From: Bdellovibrio sp. ZAP7
Lineage (GTDB): Bacteria; Bdellovibrionota_B; Oligoflexia; Oligoflexales; RGVZ01
NCBI GenBank assembly: GCA_945900755.1
Contig: CAMDKS010000015.1
Coordinates: 1 to 64,000 of the forward strand
Length of the DNA: 64,000 bases
Direction of reading: 5' to 3'
The notes under the pieces: generated by a model
Database searches by the model: none
Told to the model about the DNA's origin: nothing
What the model saw: the letters and a program-made list of their open reading frames with translations, nothing else
Part shown: positions 1,642-45,628 of the stretch, in pieces
Numbering within the stretch: the stretch's first letter is position 1
Layout: every line of letters begins with the position of its first letter
Translations under genes and position numbers: made by a program

Positions 1642-3285
1642 ATGAATAAATCTGCAGCAAAGCGCCGCGTCCTAACCGTCGTCATGGACGGCGTCGGGTT
1701 ATCGTCAAATGAATTTGGAAACGCCGTAGCAAATGCAGCTCGGCCAAATCTTGAATGGCTGAAAAACTTCGCCACATGGCGCACGCTAGCCGCCCACGGC
1801 AAAGCGGTAGGCTTACCGTCAGACAGCGACATTGGGAATAGTGAAGTTGGGCACAACGCACTCGGCGCTGGCCGCATATTTGATCAAGGGGCAAAACTAG
1901 TTCAAGAGGCCATCGCCAATGGCTCCATGTTTACTGGCGAAGCGTGGCAAAAAATCCGACATCAAGTGGCGTCTAATCAAAGCACCCTGCATTTTCTCGG
2001 CCTTCTTTCTGACGGAAATGTTCATGCTCACGAAGATCATCTCTACGCTATGCTCCGCCGCGCCAAACAAGACGGCTTAAAGCGAGTGCGTATACATATT
2101 TTGTTTGACGGTCGCGATGTTGGCGAAAAATCGGCGGAGACCTATGTCGCACGCCTTGAGACTGTTTTAGCAGAACTACGATCCGAACGTTTTGACGTTG
2201 CAGTGGCCTCGGGCGGAGGTCGAATGCAAATCACAATGGACCGATACGAAGCCGATTGGCCGATGGTTAAACGCGGCTGGAATTGTCACGTTCAAGGCGA
2301 AGCTCCCAATAGGTTTGCGACGCTCGCAGATGCCATGCACAAATTTAGGTCCGATTCAACCATTACTGACCAGTATATTCCCGAATTTATCCTAGAAAAA
2401 AATGGAAAACCGGTCGGCACCATAAACGATGGGGACGCCGTTATATTTTTCAACTTTCGCGGAGACCGCGCCATTGCCATCAGCCGAGCCTTTACCGAAT
2501 CAAATTTCAACAAGTTTGACCGGGGCCGATTTCCAAAGGTTCTCTATGCTGGAATGATGCGCTATGACGGTGATTTAAACATTCCAGAACACTTTCTTGT
2601 TCAGCCTCCAGCTATTTCTGACACATTCGGCGAGTATCTTGCGACCTCTGGTATTCGACAATTTGCTTGCAGTGAAACCCAAAAATTTGGGCACGTCACT
2701 TACTTTTGGAACGGCAATCGCAGCGGCTATTTCGACAAGTCAGTGGAAGAATATTTGGAGATACCTTCAGACAGCAACATCACCTTTGACCTAAAGCCTT
2801 GGATGAAGGCCTATGAGATCACTGAAGAGACGATAAAGCGCATGAAGTCTGGACGTTTCGATTTTGGACGCATTAACTTCGCCAATGCCGACATGGTAGG
2901 GCACACGGGAAATTATGAGGCGGCCGTCATTGCGGTCGAAACCGTTGATTTAATGCTAGGACGGCTGCTAACGGCAGCCAAAGCCACAAATACCATCTTA
3001 GTCGTGACGGCAGATCACGGCAACGCCGATGAGATGTTTGATGCGAAAGCAAAGGATTTTCCAGACTGGAAAAATCTGCCGCTGACCAAAAGACCCTCCC
3101 CAAAAACGGCGCACACACTAAATCCAGTGCCACTGGCTATATTTGATCCCGCACGCACCAGCCCATGGAAGCTTAACACCACGATTCAAAATGGCACCCT
3201 TGGCAACCTCGCCAATACAGCACTCACCCTAATGGGTATTCCTAATCGTGATATTTATCTCCCAAGCCTTATTTTAAAGGATTGA
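1642..3285 (+). CDS. gpmI: 2,3-bisphosphoglycerate-independent phosphoglycerate mutase
   Basis: This cytosolic glycolytic enzyme interconverts 3- and 2-phosphoglycerate using two metal ions and a phosphoserine intermediate. The catalytic Ser is in GNSEVGHNALGAGR. Metal ligands are visible in VVMDGVG near the N-terminus and in TADHGNADEM and KTAHTLNPVPL near the C-terminus. At 547 aa it is somewhat longer than the usual ~510. The track starts at TTG 1576, but ATG 1642 has AAGGGG just upstream and starts close to the conserved N-terminus. The gene leads gpmI-mazG-rnhA, whose neighbours overlap or nearly abut. The extra length and the NAL after GNSEVGH (usually LNI) suggest a divergent branch. 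Confidence 0.95.
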   Translation: MNKSAAKRRVLTVVMDGVGLSSNEFGNAVANAARPNLEWLKNFATWRTLAAHGKAVGLPSDSDIGNSEVGHNALGAGRIFDQGAKLVQEAIANGSMFTGEAWQKIRHQVASNQSTLHFLGLLSDGNVHAHEDHLYAMLRRAKQDGLKRVRIHILFDGRDVGEKSAETYVARLETVLAELRSERFDVAVASGGGRMQITMDRYEADWPMVKRGWNCHVQGEAPNRFATLADAMHKFRSDSTITDQYIPEFILEKNGKPVGTINDGDAVIFFNFRGDRAIAISRAFTESNFNKFDRGRFPKVLYAGMMRYDGDLNIPEHFLVQPPAISDTFGEYLATSGIRQFACSETQKFGHVTYFWNGNRSGYFDKSVEEYLEIPSDSNITFDLKPWMKAYEITEETIKRMKSGRFDFGRINFANADMVGHTGNYEAAVIAVETVDLMLGRLLTAAKATNTILVVTADHGNADEMFDAKAKDFPDWKNLPLTKRPSPKTAHTLNPVPLAIFDPARTSPWKLNTTIQNGTLGNLANTALTLMGIPNRDIYLPSLILKD

Positions 3286-3290
3286 AAAAA

Positions 3291-4151
3291 ATGAGCGGTA
3301 CCAAAAACAATTGGGACACCACAAAAAAGGCTTTTGGCGAGCTTTGTCAAACGATCGCAGCCTTGCGTCACCCCACAACAGGCTGTCCTTGGGACTTAGA
3401 GCAGACGCACGCAACCCTTCGCAGGTACATGCTTGAAGAGGCTTATGAGGCGGCAGAAGTCATGGACCCTGCCGATCCTGCCAAACTAAAAGACGAGCTT
3501 GGAGATGTTTTATTGCAAGTAGTACTGAACTCTCAGCTTGCGACGGATGCGTCCACATTCACCATTCAAGATGTGATCGAAGGTCTTGACGCAAAAATGT
3601 GTCGACGCCATCCACACGTATTTGGTATTGACGGTAATCCTAATGATCTGCATTCCCGCGACCGATCGAAAATTAAGGACATGTGGCAAGCGGTGAAGGC
3701 CAAAGAAAATCCTGCAAAAAACAAAGCTGCCGCAGGCGTCTTCTCACATCTCAAGGCTGGGTCTATAACTCCAGCCTTGCACCTCACTGTAGCCATAGGA
3801 AAGGTTGCGCAAAAAATTGCGTTTGATTGGAACACCCCCACCGAAGTGTTTGACCAGCTCCAAAGTGAGGTTAAAGAATTGCAGCACGAGCTCGTCACAA
3901 ATAAAAGCAAGGCGAAAATATACGAAGAACTAAGTGATGTGTTTTTTTCTCTCGGCCAACTCTGTCGACACCTCGACATTGATCCAGAGGTCTGTGCCCT
4001 AGACGGCAATAAGAAATTTCTGACTCGCTTCCAGTCACTTGAATCTCTCGCACAGTCTGAGGGCGTGGATGTTCCGACCGCAGGCAAAGCTATACTTGAA
4101 ACCCTTTGGAAAAAAGCAAAAGCCCTTGAAAAACGTGAGGCCTCCAAATGA
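3291..4151 (+). CDS. mazG: nucleoside triphosphate pyrophosphohydrolase MazG
   Basis: MazG hydrolyses NTPs and dNTPs to monophosphates and pyrophosphate, helping clear non-canonical nucleotides. The 286-aa product has the two-domain architecture. The N-terminal domain has [10 protein letters not shown] followed by [13 protein letters not shown] (metal-binding E-x-x-E/D motifs). The C-terminal domain has EVKELQHEL and [14 protein letters not shown]. The ATG lies 6 bases after the gpmI stop. A TTG at 3282 overlaps that stop and is less likely. The 3' end overlaps the rnhA start by four bases (ATGA), indicating translational coupling. Confidence 0.93.
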
Positions 4152-5210: not shown

Positions 5211-6906
5211 CAATAGCTGTGGTTAAATTGGGGTGCTCCCCAAACGAATCGCGAATCTGGATGAGAGTATCTAGGGCCTCTGGATCATTTTGGTTTTCAA
5301 GACAGGCTTGAACCACCAAATTTAGGGAAGGTGACTCCAGCCCACCTACGCCGATGGCTTTCTGAAGCCAAAACACAGATTCAGTAAACATCTTTAGTCG
5401 ACGATAAACTAAACCTACTCCCGCCAAACACTGATAGTCGTTAGGATTTACTGCAAGTCCTCGCTTAAAGAAACTCAAAGCATCTTCGTGGCTATGCCCT
5501 TGCCAAGCCAAATAACCCAGTCCGCGTAGGGCATGGTAATTCTCGCTGTTTGCCTTTAAGGATTCTTCGAAGGCTGATATGGCCTCATCGCCACGAGACA
5601 ACGCCACTAAGGCATCCCCGCGAATCCGTAAAACCTCAGAGTGCTGCCCCACTTCACAGGTGGATGAAAAATCACGAACTTCTTCACACTTCACCAATAC
5701 AGCACTAGCATCCTTAAACGTCATCACCACTTGGTGGCACTCGATAAACGTTTTAAGACCTAAACGGCGATTACTTCGTTCGTCTTTTCTACATAATTCT
5801 TCAAATACGCCCTCAATGATTCGGGCTGCGGTCTTCGGAGAAAGGAATTCTGCCGCCAGCTGACCTGCCTCTTGTCGCTGTTCACTGACATGATCAACAC
5901 TCTTAATCGATTTTGTTAGACTCAAAGCCACATCGAGAGCAGAAAAATCATCCAAACGGATCACCGGCAACCCTGACAACCAATCATCGGCAATCGTGCC
6001 ACTTGGTACAATAAGTTTGGCGCCACAAGTAGCCGCAGAAATTATATGCCACGGCAAAATCTCGGGCTCGACTGTTTTGTTTCGTCGGCCCTCGATCACA
6101 ATATCGCTGGCACAAAGTAAATCTTGAATAAATGGCTGGAGGTCCTGAGCTAAGAGCATCGTCTGCGCACCGAGCCCCAAATCAGAAATTAGATATTTAA
6201 GAGCAGTTGAAGCCTCGCCAGCACCACAGAGCAAAAATCTAACCCTACTTCGTAAATCTGCGGGGAGTTGATTTAAGGCCAGCCTTGCACCCTGCACAAT
6301 CGTTGACGCGGGCTCCAATTCTCCTAGATTTGTCATGAGCGTAACCAGAATACTTGACTTAGAAATTTGGAAATAATTTCTAAATCGCATTGAACTCGGT
6401 TCTGAATAGACAAATCGACGAGGATCTGTCGCTGCATTAATTTTAGAAATTTTCGTTAAGGGCACCTGCTCCATTTCCAATAACTGCGATGCTCGCCGTG
6501 ACGTCGGGAAAAACGCATCTGAGTTTTGGCAGATGTCTTGCTGAATAGCACGAATATTTGCAAATTTTTCATAGATAAAAGGATCATATTCATGAGTCAC
6601 GCAAGCAAACGGAATGCCGAGCTTTCGAGCCGCTCGCACGGCTTGAAAAGTATAGAGCTTACTTGTTTCAATACCCACGACAACATCGGCTCCCATTAAA
6701 TGGCGTTCTAGGTCTCTGCAGAAGCCTGGCATGTCTGGAATCTGTGGGAAAAGCACTAAAGGGAGGGACGTTGTACCGTTGTAGTTTCCAGAGTCTATGG
6801 CAAACACCTCGACAGAGTGCCTTAAGGACAAATCCTCCCACACCTTGAGCAAGGATGGGTCAAGCAGGGTTCCGGCTACAATTTTTATTTTCAATTTTCG
6901 AACCAT
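5188..6906 (-). CDS. glycosyltransferase (GT4-like fold) with C-terminal TPR repeats
   Basis: The 572-aa product has two parts. Residues ~1-370 resemble a two-Rossmann-domain GT-B glycosyltransferase: IKIVAGTLLDPS start, GADVVVGIETS, ACVTHEYDPF, VRFLLCGAGEAST and a sugar-nucleotide-site-like region near NKTVEPEILPWHI with the E-x7-E spacing only loosely kept. Residues ~430-545 contain about three TPR units (GDEAISAFEESLKANSENYH, HEDALSFFKRGLAVNPNDYQ). Donor and acceptor are unknown. The ATG at 6906 has GAGGG 4 bases upstream and is preferred to 6921. It follows the protease gene by 24 bases, so the two are probably co-transcribed. Confidence 0.7.
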   Translation of the reverse strand: MVRKLKIKIVAGTLLDPSLLKVWEDLSLRHSVEVFAIDSGNYNGTTSLPLVLFPQIPDMPGFCRDLERHLMGADVVVGIETSKLYTFQAVRAARKLGIPFACVTHEYDPFIYEKFANIRAIQQDICQNSDAFFPTSRRASQLLEMEQVPLTKISKINAATDPRRFVYSEPSSMRFRNYFQISKSSILVTLMTNLGELEPASTIVQGARLALNQLPADLRSRVRFLLCGAGEASTALKYLISDLGLGAQTMLLAQDLQPFIQDLLCASDIVIEGRRNKTVEPEILPWHIISAATCGAKLIVPSGTIADDWLSGLPVIRLDDFSALDVALSLTKSIKSVDHVSEQRQEAGQLAAEFLSPKTAARIIEGVFEELCRKDERSNRRLGLKTFIECHQVVMTFKDASAVLVKCEEVRDFSSTCEVGQHSEVLRIRGDALVALSRGDEAISAFEESLKANSENYHALRGLGYLAWQGHSHEDALSFFKRGLAVNPNDYQCLAGVGLVYRRLKMFTESVFWLQKAIGVGGLESPSLNLVVQACLENQNDPEALDTLIQIRDSFGEHPNLTTAIEKIQSHQ

Positions 6907-6930
6907 TTTTCCCTCTAACATGAATAACTC

Positions 6931-9456
6931 TTAATGCGAAAGATTCTCATTATCTCGAATAACTGCGACGGGTGCTGACGTACGAATTTCCGATGTGGCA
7001 AAAATTTCCTGACCGTTTGATCTCTGTTTCAAAGCAAAACCGATTAAAACTGTGGGCGATTCCATTTTTTCTTTCGCGACGATTGGCACCAAAATTTCCT
7101 TCTGGTCTCCTGCCAAAATTGAACCTAGTGAAAAACTACTTTTTGGCACCATAATCTGATCCCCTGCAAGACTCGATACGGACACCTGTGCGCCGTGAAT
7201 ATCGTCACCTGTTTTGTTAGCCACCGTGACCCGAATCATGGCCGCTTCATTGCCCTCAATCACCTTTGCAACGCTACTAGCGACGCCATCAACGAATTCT
7301 GCGGTCATGGTGATTGGTGCTAAATTGCGATCCACAACATCAATCAAAAATTCGCCTTGCCCCGTTTTCATCGCCTGAGCATCAATTGCAATACCTGAAT
7401 TTACATAGTGGCGACCCGACACCATCGCGTTTGGTATCATCACCTTAAAGACTCCTTCTCGTGATTCCCCACTTTCGATGGCACCAACGAGCGCTTCCTT
7501 TGTTTCAAGTCCTGACACCGCCGACTGAATAAACACGGATACATTTTCTGCGGCACGAGTACCAAAATTTGAAATCTTCCACGGGACCTCTAGCACACCG
7601 TTCCGAGTAGATTGGATGCCAGATGCTAGAGATGAGATTTTAAGAGTTAAACTTGGCGCGCTCACGCTTGGCGCGACGTTGGCCTTCCAGTGCACTTTAT
7701 GGGAGTTCTCCAACCACGTAATGACCGACTGTGAGATTTTTGATAGATCGCTCCTAATGGCAGGGGCTGCAAGCGCAAGCCAATGACTCGATCTTCTAGC
7801 GCCTATCGGCAAATGATTACCGTAGACGGCACCCACTTTTGAAAATATCGTCATTGCAATTCTCATTTCGGGATCAAGCTCCTCAGATTTGGTTGTCGCC
7901 GAGTAATCGCGAGCAAAATAGAAACCTTTAATCAATGGAGACCCTGATCCGCCCTTAGGATCAGCAGCAGCATTGAGTCGATTCGGAAGAAACTGTTCAT
8001 TGCGATAACGGTACAGTCCAAAAACATTTGCATTATCAGTGGTTCGGTATACCGGCTGGGTCCATACATCCGGAAGAATCCCAATATTTTGTATGCTCTT
8101 GTCGGCGGGTGTAAAATAGCGTGCAATTGTTAATTTTAGAGCTCTGAGTGCCGGCAACTCAAAAACTGTTTGCACAGACCCCTTGCCGAAGCTTGGTTGC
8201 CCAATCACCACCGCCCGGCCATTATCTTGAAGAGCTCCAGCGACAATTTCACTTGCTGAGGCACTGCCTTCGTCCATCAGTACAACCAACGGAAAATCCA
8301 CCTCATCATTCGTATGATTCGCACGCTCAATTTCTTGTTTGCGACCACGCGTGGTAACAACAATTCCTTTATCCAAGAAAATGTCACTCACGACGACGGC
8401 TTGGTCTAACAGTCCACCAGGATTTCCACGCAAATCCAACACGACGCCACCCAACGGGCGTTTCTGCCGAAATTTGTGAATAGAGGCGACGATCTCTTGA
8501 GACGTTCGAACTGCAAAACTTTCCACGAGTAACCGCAAAATGTAGTGATTTCCCTGTTTATATTCAAACTCCTCGACCGAATTAACTTCAATGATCTCGC
8601 GTTGAAGTGCCCGAGTTTTTGGATAGCCATCACCTTCACGTAAGGTCATAAGACTAGCTTTGCTTCCCGGCTCTCCGCGCATGTGAGAGACGAGAGTATC
8701 CAGAGACTTTCCAAACGTATTAAAGCCGTCAATCGACAATATTTTATCGTCCTTGCGAACTCCATTGCGCAATGCAGGGCTGTTCGGCAGAGTCTTTAAT
8801 ACGGTTAACACGTTATTGCGAACACCAACCAGCACGCCTAAACCACCGAACGCACCCTCAGTTCCCTGTCTGAGATCTTGATAACCCTCGGTAGAAAGCA
8901 GCGATGAATGAGCATCCAGAGAGCTTAATAGAGCATTAAGAACAATTGATGTGGAATTGCGCTCGTCGCCGAGCATGATGTTTTCGCCCTGATCCATCAA
9001 TTGATCGACGTTGATGCGGTCGCAAAATCCAATAAGGCTTTTGAGATGACCAAGGAGTACGTCGTAGTCCATTTCCCGATTACGGCTGAACTCGAGGGTT
9101 TCGGACTGCATCGTCAACGAGTAGACGGCGTCACTTTCATGAAAAGTCAGCTCGGGGATGGCAAAGGCTAAAGAGCGCATAGTTCCGGAGATCAGCTGAT
9201 CACTCTCCACGCGCTCCGGATCCACATAATAGTTCTGAACGAGACTAACAATCGAGTCCAACAAGATGGCGGACGTTGTCTCCTTGATGGACTTGTCTTC
9301 TGATACTTGAGTGACAGCCGTCCGGCGATGAGCTGATTTAGCTCTGAACCTCAATTCTCGCGGATGCAAAAAAATAATTACTGTAAGCAGTAGCGCCGCA
9401 ATGACGGTTGCTGGCAATCCATTAAATTTGGGAGCTTGCGAGCTCTTTCGAAACAT
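6931..9456 (-). CDS. C-terminal processing peptidase (S41, CtpA/Prc type) with extra C-terminal domains
   Basis: This is a membrane-anchored periplasmic serine protease of family S41. From ATG 9456 it has 841 aa. One N-terminal transmembrane helix (ATVIAALLLTVIIFL) is followed by a helical region and a PDZ domain (GGLGVLVGVRNNVLTVLKTL, RNGVRKDDKILSIDG). The catalytic domain has Ser in DEGSASASE and Lys in PSFGKGSVQ. The last ~300 residues look like two beta-sandwich domains of the CARDB kind (VPWKISNFGTRAAENVSVFI, MIRVTVANKTGDDIHGAQV), an unusual addition. GAGGTGG precedes the chosen ATG. An N-terminal extension to 9537 appears in the track, but see the overlapping small ORF. Confidence 0.88.
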   Translation of the reverse strand: MFRKSSQAPKFNGLPATVIAALLLTVIIFLHPRELRFRAKSAHRRTAVTQVSEDKSIKETTSAILLDSIVSLVQNYYVDPERVESDQLISGTMRSLAFAIPELTFHESDAVYSLTMQSETLEFSRNREMDYDVLLGHLKSLIGFCDRINVDQLMDQGENIMLGDERNSTSIVLNALLSSLDAHSSLLSTEGYQDLRQGTEGAFGGLGVLVGVRNNVLTVLKTLPNSPALRNGVRKDDKILSIDGFNTFGKSLDTLVSHMRGEPGSKASLMTLREGDGYPKTRALQREIIEVNSVEEFEYKQGNHYILRLLVESFAVRTSQEIVASIHKFRQKRPLGGVVLDLRGNPGGLLDQAVVVSDIFLDKGIVVTTRGRKQEIERANHTNDEVDFPLVVLMDEGSASASEIVAGALQDNGRAVVIGQPSFGKGSVQTVFELPALRALKLTIARYFTPADKSIQNIGILPDVWTQPVYRTTDNANVFGLYRYRNEQFLPNRLNAAADPKGGSGSPLIKGFYFARDYSATTKSEELDPEMRIAMTIFSKVGAVYGNHLPIGARRSSHWLALAAPAIRSDLSKISQSVITWLENSHKVHWKANVAPSVSAPSLTLKISSLASGIQSTRNGVLEVPWKISNFGTRAAENVSVFIQSAVSGLETKEALVGAIESGESREGVFKVMIPNAMVSGRHYVNSGIAIDAQAMKTGQGEFLIDVVDRNLAPITMTAEFVDGVASSVAKVIEGNEAAMIRVTVANKTGDDIHGAQVSVSSLAGDQIMVPKSSFSLGSILAGDQKEILVPIVAKEKMESPTVLIGFALKQRSNGQEIFATSEIRTSAPVAVIRDNENLSH

Positions 9457-30498: not shown

Positions 30499-32325
30499 AT
30501 GACTCAAGTTTCAGCAATGTGGCACCGCACTCACACACTCGGCGAACTGAACAAATCCCACGCGGGACAGGACGTGATCCTTACAGGCTGGGTTAATCGA
30601 CATCGCGATCATGGCCAATTTATTTTTTTAGACTTGCGTGATCGTTATGGAATCACTCAGGCCGTTGTCGACCCTGAACGCACTCCTGCCGTCTACGATA
30701 TGGCAAAGGGCCTCCGCGCTGAATTTGTCGTGGCGATTAAGGGTAAGGTCGTGGCGCGTCCTGACGGTATGATTAACAAAAATATGGCCACAGGTGATGT
30801 CGACGTTCACATTACAGACCTTCGGATTCTAAATAAGTGTGACGTTTTGCCCTTCAACATTCAAGACGATGGCGACGTCTCCGAAGCACTGCGCCTGAAA
30901 CATCGTTATTTAGATCTGCGCCGACCAGTCATGAAAAATAACATCGTAAACCGCACCAAATTCGTTGGCGAAATGCGTAGAGCCCTTGATGCTCGAAACT
31001 TTCTGGACATTGAAACTCCCATTCTCTATAAATCCACTCCCGAGGGTGCTCGCGAATATCTTGTCCCGTCTAGAATCCACCCAGGTCACTTTTACGCTCT
31101 CCCCCAAAGCCCCCAGCTATTCAAACAAACGCTTATGATAAGCGGCTTTGATCGCTACTACCAAGTTGTAAAATGTTTTCGCGACGAGGACCTTCGTGCG
31201 GATCGCCAGCCAGAATTTACACAAATTGATGTTGAAATGAGCTTTGTCGATGAGGCGCTAATCACAAATACACTGGAGGAGGTCGTTCGTAAGGCGGTGA
31301 CCAACTTCTATGATGGTCAAGTCAATTTGGCGAAACCTTTTCCTAGGCACACCTTTGCACAAGTTATGGACGACTACGGTGTCGATAAACCAGACCTGCG
31401 CTTTGACCTTAAATTAAAAAATATTACCGACTTAGTTAGTAAGTCTGAGTTTAAAGTATTCAGTGATGCGGTCTCGTCTCAGGGCATTGTCAATTGTCTC
31501 GTGGTTCCTAGTGCGGCCGAAAAATTTAGTCGCAAAGACATCGACGAACTCGGTGATGTCGCCAAAAATCATGGGGGCAAGGGACTTGCCTGGATTAAAA
31601 AATCGTCGGGCACAGGCCTCGCCAGCTGGAGCGGCCCAATTGCTAAATTCTTCACCGAAGCCGATTGTACGGCCATTGAAGCAAGAGCTGATATCAAATC
31701 TGGAGATCTAATCCTATTTGGCGCCGGCACTTACGACTCGACGAAATCTATGCTCGGGGCAGTACGAAATTTCCTAGGTGCAAAACTAAAATTATTTGAC
31801 CCTAAAGATCTCTACTTTTTGTGGGTCACCGAATTTCCATTGCTAGAACGAGACGAAGAGAATAATCGGTGGCTAGCCCGCCATCACCCTTTCACCTCGC
31901 CCCGTCCTGAAGACCTGCACATGATGAAAACGGACCCTGGCAAGGTGCGAGCCTCTGCCTACGACCTCGTGTTAAACGGGTACGAGGTTGCGGGCGGATC
32001 CGTGCGTATCCATGACCCCGATATTCAAAAGCAGCTTTTTAGCATTATTGGCCTCTCAGAAGAGGAGGCTCACGCCAAATTTGGATTTTTGCTGGATGCC
32101 TTGCGTTTTGGAGCACCTCCCCACGCAGGCATCGCCTTTGGCTTGGACCGCATGGTCATGTGTTTGACCGGCGCAACAGCCATTCGCGATGTTATTGCGT
32201 TTCCCAAAACGCTCAAGGGGACTTGCCTGCTGACGGGAGCACCCACTATTGCGACTCTTCCCCAACTAAAAGATCTACATATAAAGGTGGAGGTACCACC
32301 TCCCACGCCTCCGTCACCCGTTTAG
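30499..32325 (+). CDS. aspS: aspartyl-tRNA synthetase
   Basis: This class II synthetase charges tRNA-Asp (and possibly tRNA-Asn in species lacking AsnRS). The 608-aa length fits the bacterial type with the GAD insertion domain (~res 285-430). The OB-fold anticodon domain is N-terminal (VILTGWVNRHRDHGQFIFLDLRD). Class II motifs: RHRYLDLRRP, RCFRDEDLRADRQPEFTQ-type motif 2 (here VVKCFRDEDLRADRQPEFTQ) and motif 3 in GIAFGLDRMVMCLT. AGGAG precedes the ATG. Confidence 0.97.
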   Translation: MTQVSAMWHRTHTLGELNKSHAGQDVILTGWVNRHRDHGQFIFLDLRDRYGITQAVVDPERTPAVYDMAKGLRAEFVVAIKGKVVARPDGMINKNMATGDVDVHITDLRILNKCDVLPFNIQDDGDVSEALRLKHRYLDLRRPVMKNNIVNRTKFVGEMRRALDARNFLDIETPILYKSTPEGAREYLVPSRIHPGHFYALPQSPQLFKQTLMISGFDRYYQVVKCFRDEDLRADRQPEFTQIDVEMSFVDEALITNTLEEVVRKAVTNFYDGQVNLAKPFPRHTFAQVMDDYGVDKPDLRFDLKLKNITDLVSKSEFKVFSDAVSSQGIVNCLVVPSAAEKFSRKDIDELGDVAKNHGGKGLAWIKKSSGTGLASWSGPIAKFFTEADCTAIEARADIKSGDLILFGAGTYDSTKSMLGAVRNFLGAKLKLFDPKDLYFLWVTEFPLLERDEENNRWLARHHPFTSPRPEDLHMMKTDPGKVRASAYDLVLNGYEVAGGSVRIHDPDIQKQLFSIIGLSEEEAHAKFGFLLDALRFGAPPHAGIAFGLDRMVMCLTGATAIRDVIAFPKTLKGTCLLTGAPTIATLPQLKDLHIKVEVPPPTPPSPV

Positions 32326-32401
32326 TCGCCCGTTTAGTAAAAGAATAGAAATGAGAGATTTTTGCAGCTTGGCTACCACTCACTACCTCAGGAAATAAAC
32401 C

Positions 32402-33373
32402 ATGATGATGTCAGAAAATCCCCAAAGCGCCGTCGCAAATTTCCCTATGGGACCAAATGTTCGTGGTTGGCTTAACGTCTCTCCCGAGGCCTACAAAGGT
32501 AACGAAAACACGTCTCCCTCAGCGGAGGCTGTGGCAAATTTTACGGACGTTGTACTTGAGCAACTAGAAAATTCGTCTCCCCAAAACAAAGGCCACTTAG
32601 TCGATTTGCTTGAAGAGCTTGTGGGCATGAACATGCCACTTTTAGCGATCAAGCTAGCCGATGCCTATCCACTTATGTTCCCAAAGAATGATTTTCGCGC
32701 ACAACTAAACCTAGGCAATGCTGCGATGATGATTAGTGATTTTGCTCGGGCAGAAGATGCGTTTGTGGTTGCCCAGCAACTAGTGCCTGAGGAACCGGCT
32801 CCCTATATCAATCTAGCTCAGATCTATAGTCACGATGGCTTTGCGGATAAGGCTCGCGAATGGTGTTTGGCTGGCCTTGATACGGATCAAGACAACACCC
32901 GCCTTTGGGAGCTCCTCGCGTATATGGAGCAGCAATCTTGCGGCGATCCCACAGAAGGTGCAAAACGATTGGCAACCATAGCCAACGAACGAAACTCGTG
33001 GGCAGGCCTTTCCCTGTCATGCGATTTAATCAATCCAGAAGACGTCTTGACGAAACTAAAAGCCTTGGAGCCCTTTTGGAATGAGGGCTATAGAGGGCTT
33101 GAATACCTTATTGAGTTTACGGCTGTACTCGGGATGGCTGGCCGTTATGACCGGATTCCGTCTATTATTTGGACCGTCGAGAAAGAGGCGACCAACGGCC
33201 TGCCTTGGCAGTTGACCCTTCACCTGGCTCAGGCCTATTTGGGGCTAGGACGCGATGACGATGCGGTGCTCGCACTTGATAAACTTAAGAATGTTCAAGA
33301 CTTACCTAACGTCGCCAAGGAGGCGGCACAGGTCATCCTGTCCGAGGCCAAGGGACAAGCGACTGTACATTAA
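32402..33373 (+). CDS. TPR-containing cytosolic protein
   Basis: The 323-aa product lacks a signal peptide. Helical repeats of TPR type are visible in the middle (FRAQLNLGNAAMMISDFARAEDAFVVAQQLVPEEPAPYINLAQIYSHDGF, quoted only to show the unit, spans two repeats) and near the end (LTLHLAQAYLGLGRDDDAVLALDKL). No catalytic motif is visible. It lies 76 bases after aspS. An assembly or adaptor role is the usual inference for TPR proteins. Confidence 0.65.
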   Translation: MMMSENPQSAVANFPMGPNVRGWLNVSPEAYKGNENTSPSAEAVANFTDVVLEQLENSSPQNKGHLVDLLEELVGMNMPLLAIKLADAYPLMFPKNDFRAQLNLGNAAMMISDFARAEDAFVVAQQLVPEEPAPYINLAQIYSHDGFADKAREWCLAGLDTDQDNTRLWELLAYMEQQSCGDPTEGAKRLATIANERNSWAGLSLSCDLINPEDVLTKLKALEPFWNEGYRGLEYLIEFTAVLGMAGRYDRIPSIIWTVEKEATNGLPWQLTLHLAQAYLGLGRDDDAVLALDKLKNVQDLPNVAKEAAQVILSEAKGQATVH

Positions 33374-43611: not shown

Positions 43612-45165
43612 CTACCACGATTTGATAGTGTGCCGTTGATTGGTGCCCCACCCAAGTTCGCCGGTGGATTTTGGGCCGGCCTTTTCGTCTTGTTCTTCGG
43701 CATCGAGGGGATTTGCAGGCAAGGCGTGAACAGTATATTTGTATTGTCCTTCGGGAAGCCGCAGTAATTTCGTCTGTCCATTATCGATAACGAATTCGGT
43801 TTCGGAGCTCAATGACTGAATCAGGTATTTAGATAGGGCTGCGGACTCTGTCCCAGCTATCGCATCATGATCGTAAACAAAGCCGCACTCCAAATGGAAG
43901 CCTTTTCCTGTCAATTTCATTCCATCAGCAATTTGCAGGAGACTTCTCGAAGCACTAAATAAGGGATGCCAACATATTTCCGTCTGAACAAGAGTGTCAA
44001 CTATGTTTTGGGTTTGAGCTTCGGCGAGTTCTTGAACTCGTCTAGCCGCAGAATTTTTTCTATGGCGAACGAGTCTTTTCGGAGCCTCGTCTTGTTCTGA
44101 ACGACCGAGAAATTTTTTAGCCGTGTCCATAAGTTTTTGGGAGACAGCTACATCTGGCGCGATGGTGATGCGTAAGGGCTGTCGAGGCACATCAAGAGCC
44201 CTGCCAGGAATAGATTCTAGAGGAATCTTAATGCTAATTGTACCGGCCAAACTTGTTTCTTCGTACAATTCACGAAGTAGAGCTAGTTCTTGTATTCCTT
44301 TGGCAAGTCCATACAATGCGGCTTCCTGTCGAAGGGACGCTTGACCAGAGCAAACGGCCTGTTGCCAACGAAGTGACGTCATAACTACCGGCAGCTCTTC
44401 AGGAATACTGAATTTAAGGACCCGACAAAACTTCAAATAGGCTTCCTCAGGTGACGACTCTGCCGCAATTCTAGCAAGCGTCGTGACAACTCCCGATCGT
44501 CGAGCTAGGATGTATGGCTGACGACTCCACTTTTGAATCATTACTTTTTGAAACTGCTCAGTTGCGGTCATGGCCTCTTCCGGCTGCATCGACGCAAGTC
44601 GACACTTTGCCTCTTTTGCCCCAAACTCTAGCGACGTGCAATCTGGAACCAGTTGTTTCATGGCCGCCAAAATTGTATTCTGGAGGAGAACGACTTGTGC
44701 CTCATCCACGAGTATTGTATTTTCGGTCAAGAGTTGATCGTCACCACTAATTTGCGCTACGCATAGAGCATCTTTTAGCGCTTTGTTAATTTCTAGACCT
44801 GAAAGTTTTGTCTCAGAATCTTCTACGGAAGCGAGCACTAACTGGTCGCCTTCTTCTTCGAAGGCTAGATCATAACTTTGTCCGAGGACGCCTAGAGTTG
44901 CGCCGAAAACAAATCTTTGGTCTGCGCATGATTTTGCGCCAAATCGCAAATTTGACAGCGTAGCCTTCTGAGAGGTTATATTGATCCAAACATGATTGGC
45001 TTGGCTTCGGTGCACGACTATAGGTTTGGGTCCAACGACAGTAATGCTTGGATTAGGTTTTAGGCTCTTGCAGGCGTTTACCACCAAACATAAGCTAAAT
45101 AAAATTGGAACTATTGGAAATTTATAGACGCTCAATTTTCTGAACGGAAAATTCGACTTTTTCAT
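43612..45165 (-). CDS. large lipoprotein of unknown function coupled to a tube-fold protein
   Basis: The 517-aa product has a lipoprotein signal (FPIVPILFSLCLVVNAC, Cys at ~res 32). The rest is mixed helix and strand without a family I recognise. GGAGG precedes the ATG by 5 bases. Its first 44 bases overlap the upstream gp19-like gene, so the two are co-translated. An outer-membrane or periplasmic partner for the tube-fold protein is the natural inference. The 104-aa ORF across its 3' end in another frame looks like a shadow. Confidence 0.65.
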   Translation of the reverse strand: MKKSNFPFRKLSVYKFPIVPILFSLCLVVNACKSLKPNPSITVVGPKPIVVHRSQANHVWINITSQKATLSNLRFGAKSCADQRFVFGATLGVLGQSYDLAFEEEGDQLVLASVEDSETKLSGLEINKALKDALCVAQISGDDQLLTENTILVDEAQVVLLQNTILAAMKQLVPDCTSLEFGAKEAKCRLASMQPEEAMTATEQFQKVMIQKWSRQPYILARRSGVVTTLARIAAESSPEEAYLKFCRVLKFSIPEELPVVMTSLRWQQAVCSGQASLRQEAALYGLAKGIQELALLRELYEETSLAGTISIKIPLESIPGRALDVPRQPLRITIAPDVAVSQKLMDTAKKFLGRSEQDEAPKRLVRHRKNSAARRVQELAEAQTQNIVDTLVQTEICWHPLFSASRSLLQIADGMKLTGKGFHLECGFVYDHDAIAGTESAALSKYLIQSLSSETEFVIDNGQTKLLRLPEGQYKYTVHALPANPLDAEEQDEKAGPKSTGELGWGTNQRHTIKSW

Positions 45166-45628
45166 GTAGTCCTCCGACCTCAGGATTGCTGGCCTCTACG
45201 GTCCAAGCAGCTGGCTGCGACATTCGCAACACATGACGAGATATCTCAACGCCATCAGCATTCTCAGAAATCAGAGTTACGTCTTTAAGACCAGCACTAG
45301 TCTTCATTAGAGTATTCGCCCAAAGGTATAGGGACGGATCTGTAACAAAATCGCGACTTAATTCAATTCGGCCAGATTCTGCTGTCAGAACTGATCCCGC
45401 CAAGCGGTCAAGATCTTTTACCGGACTAAAGGCTCCGAAGGTGACACCATCAATCTCAACGACCATTGACGTAATTTTATTTGAAAAACTAGCAGGCAAC
45501 CGCTCTGTTGCAACCATAGGAACTAATAATAGACCCAGCAAACATAGATTTGCGACTCTAACTACTTTGCTAGACTTATACTCTGTAATGAAGTTCCGCA
45601 TATTGCGCACGACATTTCCCCATCCCAT
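45122..45628 (-). CDS. exported or membrane-anchored phage T4 gp19-like (tail-tube fold) protein
   Basis: The 168-aa product has an N-terminal hydrophobic segment (VVRVANLCLLGLLLVPMVA) and then ~125 residues matching the T4 gp19/Hcp-like tube pattern: VVEIDGVTFGAFSPV, a strand with IELSRDFVTDPSLYLW, DVTLISENADGVEISR, AAWTVEASNPEVGG and the terminal VEFSVQKIERL. In phage tails and contractile injection systems these subunits stack as hexameric tubes and are cytosolic, so a signal or anchor is unexpected. The start is uncertain (45628, GTG 45610 or 45601). It overlaps the lipoprotein gene downstream. No sheath, baseplate or spike gene is nearby. Confidence 0.6.
   Translation of the reverse strand: MGWGNVVRNMRNFITEYKSSKVVRVANLCLLGLLLVPMVATERLPASFSNKITSMVVEIDGVTFGAFSPVKDLDRLAGSVLTAESGRIELSRDFVTDPSLYLWANTLMKTSAGLKDVTLISENADGVEISRHVLRMSQPAAWTVEASNPEVGGLHEKVEFSVQKIERL

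Follow-up and report, generated by a model that had tools for sequence, protein, structure and literature searches.

Proteins of the gp19/Hcp superfamily are known as the tube subunits of phage tails and contractile machines, where they work in the cytosol. How, then, does a gene with this fold come to encode a hydrophobic N-terminal segment and to overlap a gene for a lipoprotein? The question is raised by two genes in the window, the 64,000-nucleotide stretch of DNA analysed here. Gene A is an open reading frame of 168 codons (45122-45628, with a mechanical start at ATG 45628), and gene B (43612..45165) encodes a 517-aa lipoprotein of no known family. Both genes, and the features mapped within them, lie on the minus strand. 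A first-pass annotation proposed that A is a repurposed tube fold acting in the periplasm or at the outer membrane, possibly as a pore or scaffold. We examined the fold, the N-terminus, the genomic setting and the loop by which tube subunits stack.

The fold of the A protein

Taken by itself, the window's A protein gave only a marginal match to the gp19 family in the Pfam search (PF06841, E=0.091; bit score 13, cut-off 28.2), so relatives were needed to assess the fold. Single-protein searches of Pfam, PHROGs, NCBIfam and the PDB returned nothing beyond this match. Matches from a PDB profile search were weak; those to PemK/EndoA covered a short N-terminal stretch only and were taken as chance.

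In a first search of 96 genomes, A was found in 38, all of one order. PF06841 was matched by 36 of the 38 homologues, with a best E-value of 3.5e-8, and ten genomes with the A locus pass the curated cut-off that the window's own protein does not. Aligned by hhalign to 13 gp19-type tube proteins of distant genomes, the A family scored a probability of 97.6% (E=4.6e-12) over 118 columns. In another lineage, the A-family profile also picks out, at E=2e-8, a tube gene that has a sheath-like gene close by (genome G173, locus L116; tube gene at 695-1126, sheath-like gene at 1442-2638).

The AlphaFold model of A has a mean pLDDT of 82.7, with most of the tube domain above 90. When this model was compared to the PDB with Foldseek, all 19 matches at E<=1e-3 were tube, Hcp or contractile-system proteins, and the top target-normalised TM-scores (0.60-0.65) belonged to Hcp proteins. 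BFVD matches were for the most part phage proteins, either unnamed or annotated as tail tube or tail completion. Together, Pfam, hhalign and AlphaFold/Foldseek place the tube-fold (gp19/Hcp) domain at residues 54-167 (45128..45469). Profile homology and the predicted model together assign A to the gp19/tail-tube fold superfamily. The gp19/Hcp-like pattern first read from a single sequence is therefore firm once relatives are considered.

The N-terminus of A and its setting beside B

In the closest relatives, a GTG codon aligns with that at 45610, and a short purine-rich motif, GGGGA or AGGAGA, precedes it; in the window this Shine-Dalgarno-like sequence is GGGGA at 45617..45621. Codons 19-46 of A vary mostly at third positions in close relatives, while codons 1-18 have no third-position excess. 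This codon pattern, combined with the in-register GTG and its upstream purines, indicates that translation probably begins at GTG 45610, which still leaves the hydrophobic segment inside the protein; this gives a probable gene of 45122..45610 and an exported gp19-like tube-fold protein of 162 aa. Translation beginning only after the hydrophobic segment, which would have undone the case for export, is very unlikely, since the segment is coding-constrained and the in-register GTG lies ahead of it. That objection, raised in the first-pass annotation itself, was not borne out.

The hydrophobic segment, a candidate signal-peptide h-region, spans residues 21-43 in ATG numbering (45500..45568) and is a helix over the same residues in the model. 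A hydrophobic N-terminal stretch is present in 38/38 A relatives and absent from the 13 canonical tubes; Kyte-Doolittle maxima at the N-terminus range from 1.6 to 2.95 in the former versus 0.3 to 1.3 in the latter. It is followed by Ala46 (45491..45493). Signal peptidase I would probably cut after this residue (LPA↓SFS), placing it at -1. Ala is found here in 37/38 relatives, and at -3 an equal number have L, S, I, V, A, T or F. The A sequence thus has the Sec/signal peptidase I pattern of basic n-region, h-region and small -3/-1 residues.

An alternative is that A keeps its hydrophobic segment as an inner-membrane anchor, from which a periplasmic tube domain reaches out to an outer-membrane lipoprotein B. 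A long hydrophobic helix is indeed predicted, and the residues ahead of it are basic in most relatives. However, a near-invariant Ala with a mostly small or aliphatic residue at -3 is what signal peptidase I sites look like, and the sequence beyond the segment is short and variable; we consider the anchored form unlikely. Because of the near-invariant Ala and the -3 residues, we infer that A is cleaved, which favours a cleavable signal peptide, and with it a soluble protein in the periplasm, over an anchored form. Of the "export or anchor segment" in the original description, the conserved, coding-constrained segment stands, and the anchor is the less likely half.

Gene B begins inside A. The two genes overlap by 44 nt (45122..45165), with the ATG of B falling within A codons His155-Glu156 (CAT GAA). 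The same 44-nt register is common to 35/36 pairs; the B start is ATG in 31, TTG in one and ACG in three, and the ATG falls in His/Asn/Tyr-Glu codons of A. This conserved register, with the start of one gene inside the codons of the other, points to coupled translation of A and B. It should also be noted that the same-strand overlap is unusually long, is kept at 44 nt across the order, and that the B start constrains the His-Glu codons of A.

The proposed lipoprotein character of B is upheld by its lipobox Cys32 (VNA↓C; 45070..45072), which is invariant in 35/35 homologues. B has eight further conserved cysteines, which fits an oxidising compartment. In E. coli, the residue at +2 after the lipobox Cys governs the outer-membrane destination of a lipoprotein. 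B has Lys at this position, where Asp is rare in its homologues; if the E. coli rule applies, B would go to the outer membrane. The AlphaFold model of B is confident over most of its length (pLDDT 81.6), and it had no PDB fold match by Foldseek; B likewise had no family match in Pfam, PHROGs or NCBIfam. In one genome (G011, L118:3019-4167) the B partner is a shorter homologue of 382 aa with an ordinary signal-peptide-like start and no lipobox.

A profile search detected A in 41/43 genomes of the order and in 0/15 other genomes of the same class. In a named collection, the A-bearing relatives were Oligoflexales or Pseudobacteriovorax-type MAGs. The search for other genomes with the same two-gene pair was productive: B occurs in 37 Oligoflexales genomes, with A present in each, and no B was detected in 4/41 A-bearing genomes, in one of which the locus falls at the end of a contig. 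As a separate observation, one family (f7; L119:4005-4739 and L120:2013-2762) has A with large insertions (244-249 aa) and no detected adjoining B homologue. In a mirror-tree comparison, the partial correlation between A and B was 0.71 given RidA but 0.09 given Ffh, which does not separate co-evolution of the pair from shared phylogeny.

The usual Oligoflexales gene order, seen in many families, is aspS - TPR - ridA - A - B - ffh - miaB. This conserved setting marks A and B as an old core locus of the chromosome rather than part of a mobile element. The window departs from the usual order: aspS and the TPR-like gene lie at 30499-33373, about 12 kb from ridA; the ancestral aspS-TPR-ridA cluster is split in this genus. 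Promoter and terminator scans at the locus found no obvious promoter for A and no terminators above chance.

Could the start of A simply have been misread, and its product be an ordinary cytosolic tube protein from a prophage or contractile injection system? The gp19 homology would be explained, and the first-pass annotation had seen no sheath gene nearby. We find neither the PF04984 sheath nor the PF05943 T6SS sheath in the window's whole assembly (~90% complete), and among 41 genomes of the order PF04984 occurs in only two and PF05943 in none. Set beside a coding-constrained, conserved hydrophobic segment and a locus fixed next to ridA and ffh across the order, these absences leave the cytosolic tube scarcely credible. 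A differs from a functional contractile tube protein in that its genome yielded no sheath gene, its loop is not long and its N-terminus is signal-like.

The shortened loop and the assembly of A

In the window's protein the loop between strands 2 and 3 covers residues 68-91 (45356..45427), or 24 residues versus 38-40 in canonical tubes. We measured loop length from the conserved Phe of strand 2 to the Arg before the helix in 38 A family members and 13 canonical tubes. It is 18-30 residues in 37/38 members, most having 24-28, compared to 38-40 in the tubes (n=13), making the A family loop ~13 residues shorter than in true tubes. The remaining member carries a 54-residue insert in the loop. In the hhalign alignment with tube proteins this region is a gap, and in the A model it contains a short helix, with no strand until residue 86. 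By analogy of position, it is the predicted equivalent of the beta2-beta3 loop of phage tubes and of the extended loop of Hcp.

Removal of the beta2-beta3 loop left T5 without tubes and blocked ring-to-ring growth in SPP1, and a YSD1 tube protein without the loop formed mostly hexameric rings (PMC8718954). Similarly, two changes in the extended loop of one Hcp1 gave hexamers with no dodecamers or stacking (PMC4650826). As most of this loop has been lost from A, comparison with the T5, SPP1, YSD1 and Hcp1 mutants predicts that A forms a ring or stays a monomer and does not form a tube. The suggested pore is accordingly not supported, the ring-joining loop being ~13 residues shorter.

The same measurements bear on whether A still polymerises into periplasmic or extracellular tubes as an unusual appendage. 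Its tube-subunit fold would allow this, and in a granular-biofilm secretome study a Phage_T4_gp19-domain protein was abundant within a protein cluster predicted to form aggregates (PMC12019908). With the stacking loop shortened in 37/38 members and its loss known to block tubes elsewhere (PMC8718954), such an appendage is highly improbable. Loss of the ring-joining loop would also be expected if A formed no rings at all and was instead a monomeric exported tube-fold domain that serves B as a small chaperone or partner protein. There is no contractile-system partner, and the overlap suggests synthesis coupled to that of B. However, the tube-subunit core motifs are strongly conserved in the A family, possibly for folding only, and we regard a monomeric A in this role as doubtful.

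Our best explanation, held with moderate confidence, is that A is a domesticated, exported tube subunit that joins lipoprotein B in a complex of the cell envelope, either ring-like or monomeric. A would be made with a Sec signal peptide, cut after Ala46 and folded in the periplasm, where, with most of its stacking loop lost, it would probably build no tube and exist as a single ring or monomer. B, with its translation starting within the last codons of A, would be a disulphide-bonded lipoprotein, probably held at the outer membrane on its periplasmic side. A and B would then bind one another in one envelope complex, for which we infer a structural or scaffolding role. The fold, homology, export signal, order-wide linkage and lack of a sheath support a repurposed exported tube fold. 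Thus, of the original proposal, the repurposed, exported and lipoprotein-coupled fold is retained and the pore is not, while a scaffold would be compatible with these results.

Exported tube folds elsewhere and comparison with known systems

Exported gp19-like proteins were also found in families f157, f112 and f161 (L117, L122-L126, L132, L133, L142). Family f157, which lies outside the order, has such a protein in six genomes, and at the four loci examined (L117, L122, L124 and L126) the gp19-like gene is followed by a signal-bearing gene of ~400-425 codons. At L117 these are 6310-6843 (PF06841, E=1.6e-11) and 6889-8112, respectively. In f112, gp19-like genes with signal-like N-termini occur in tandem (L132:1453-2049 and 2068-3423; L133:662-1306 and 1201-1971), and f161 has a single gp19-like protein with a signal-like N-terminus (L142:1100-1618). 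We found no description of an exported tube-fold protein like A in the searched literature, which covered few subscription papers. A seamount study tied Myxococcota gp19 genes to ordinary injection systems (PMC11937823).

We tentatively put forward a broader reading, which we think possible and no better than that: in the Oligoflexales a tube subunit of a phage or injection system may have become a permanent ring in the periplasm, devoid of the stacking loop and mounted on an outer-membrane lipoprotein dedicated to it. Tube-fold exports with their own exported partners may have arisen separately in other bacterial lineages, together making up a general, unrecognised class of envelope component. 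Exported, conserved and vertically kept, and with its stacking loop naturally deleted, A would illustrate how a phage-type part became a component of the cell envelope, and the A family is a natural test of stacking-loop function.

The f157, f112 and f161 proteins resemble A in having a gp19 domain behind a hydrophobic, signal-like N-terminus. However, they are not close to A in sequence, their partners differ, and in f112 the loop is of full length. The type VI secretion protein Hcp (TssD), which is not known to carry a signal peptide, has the same fold as A and retains the extended loop, whereas A does not; the T6SS sheath is absent from the window's genome and 40 relatives. The T4 gp19/PF06841 tubes of phages and eCIS (Pvc1, Afp1, AlgoCIS) share with A the fold and profile homology. 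A is set apart from them by its signal peptide, the loop shortened by ~13 residues, the lack of a sheath gene and its lipoprotein partner, while the core common to both consists of a G, the LxxW helix, a G in the hairpin, a P and an E.
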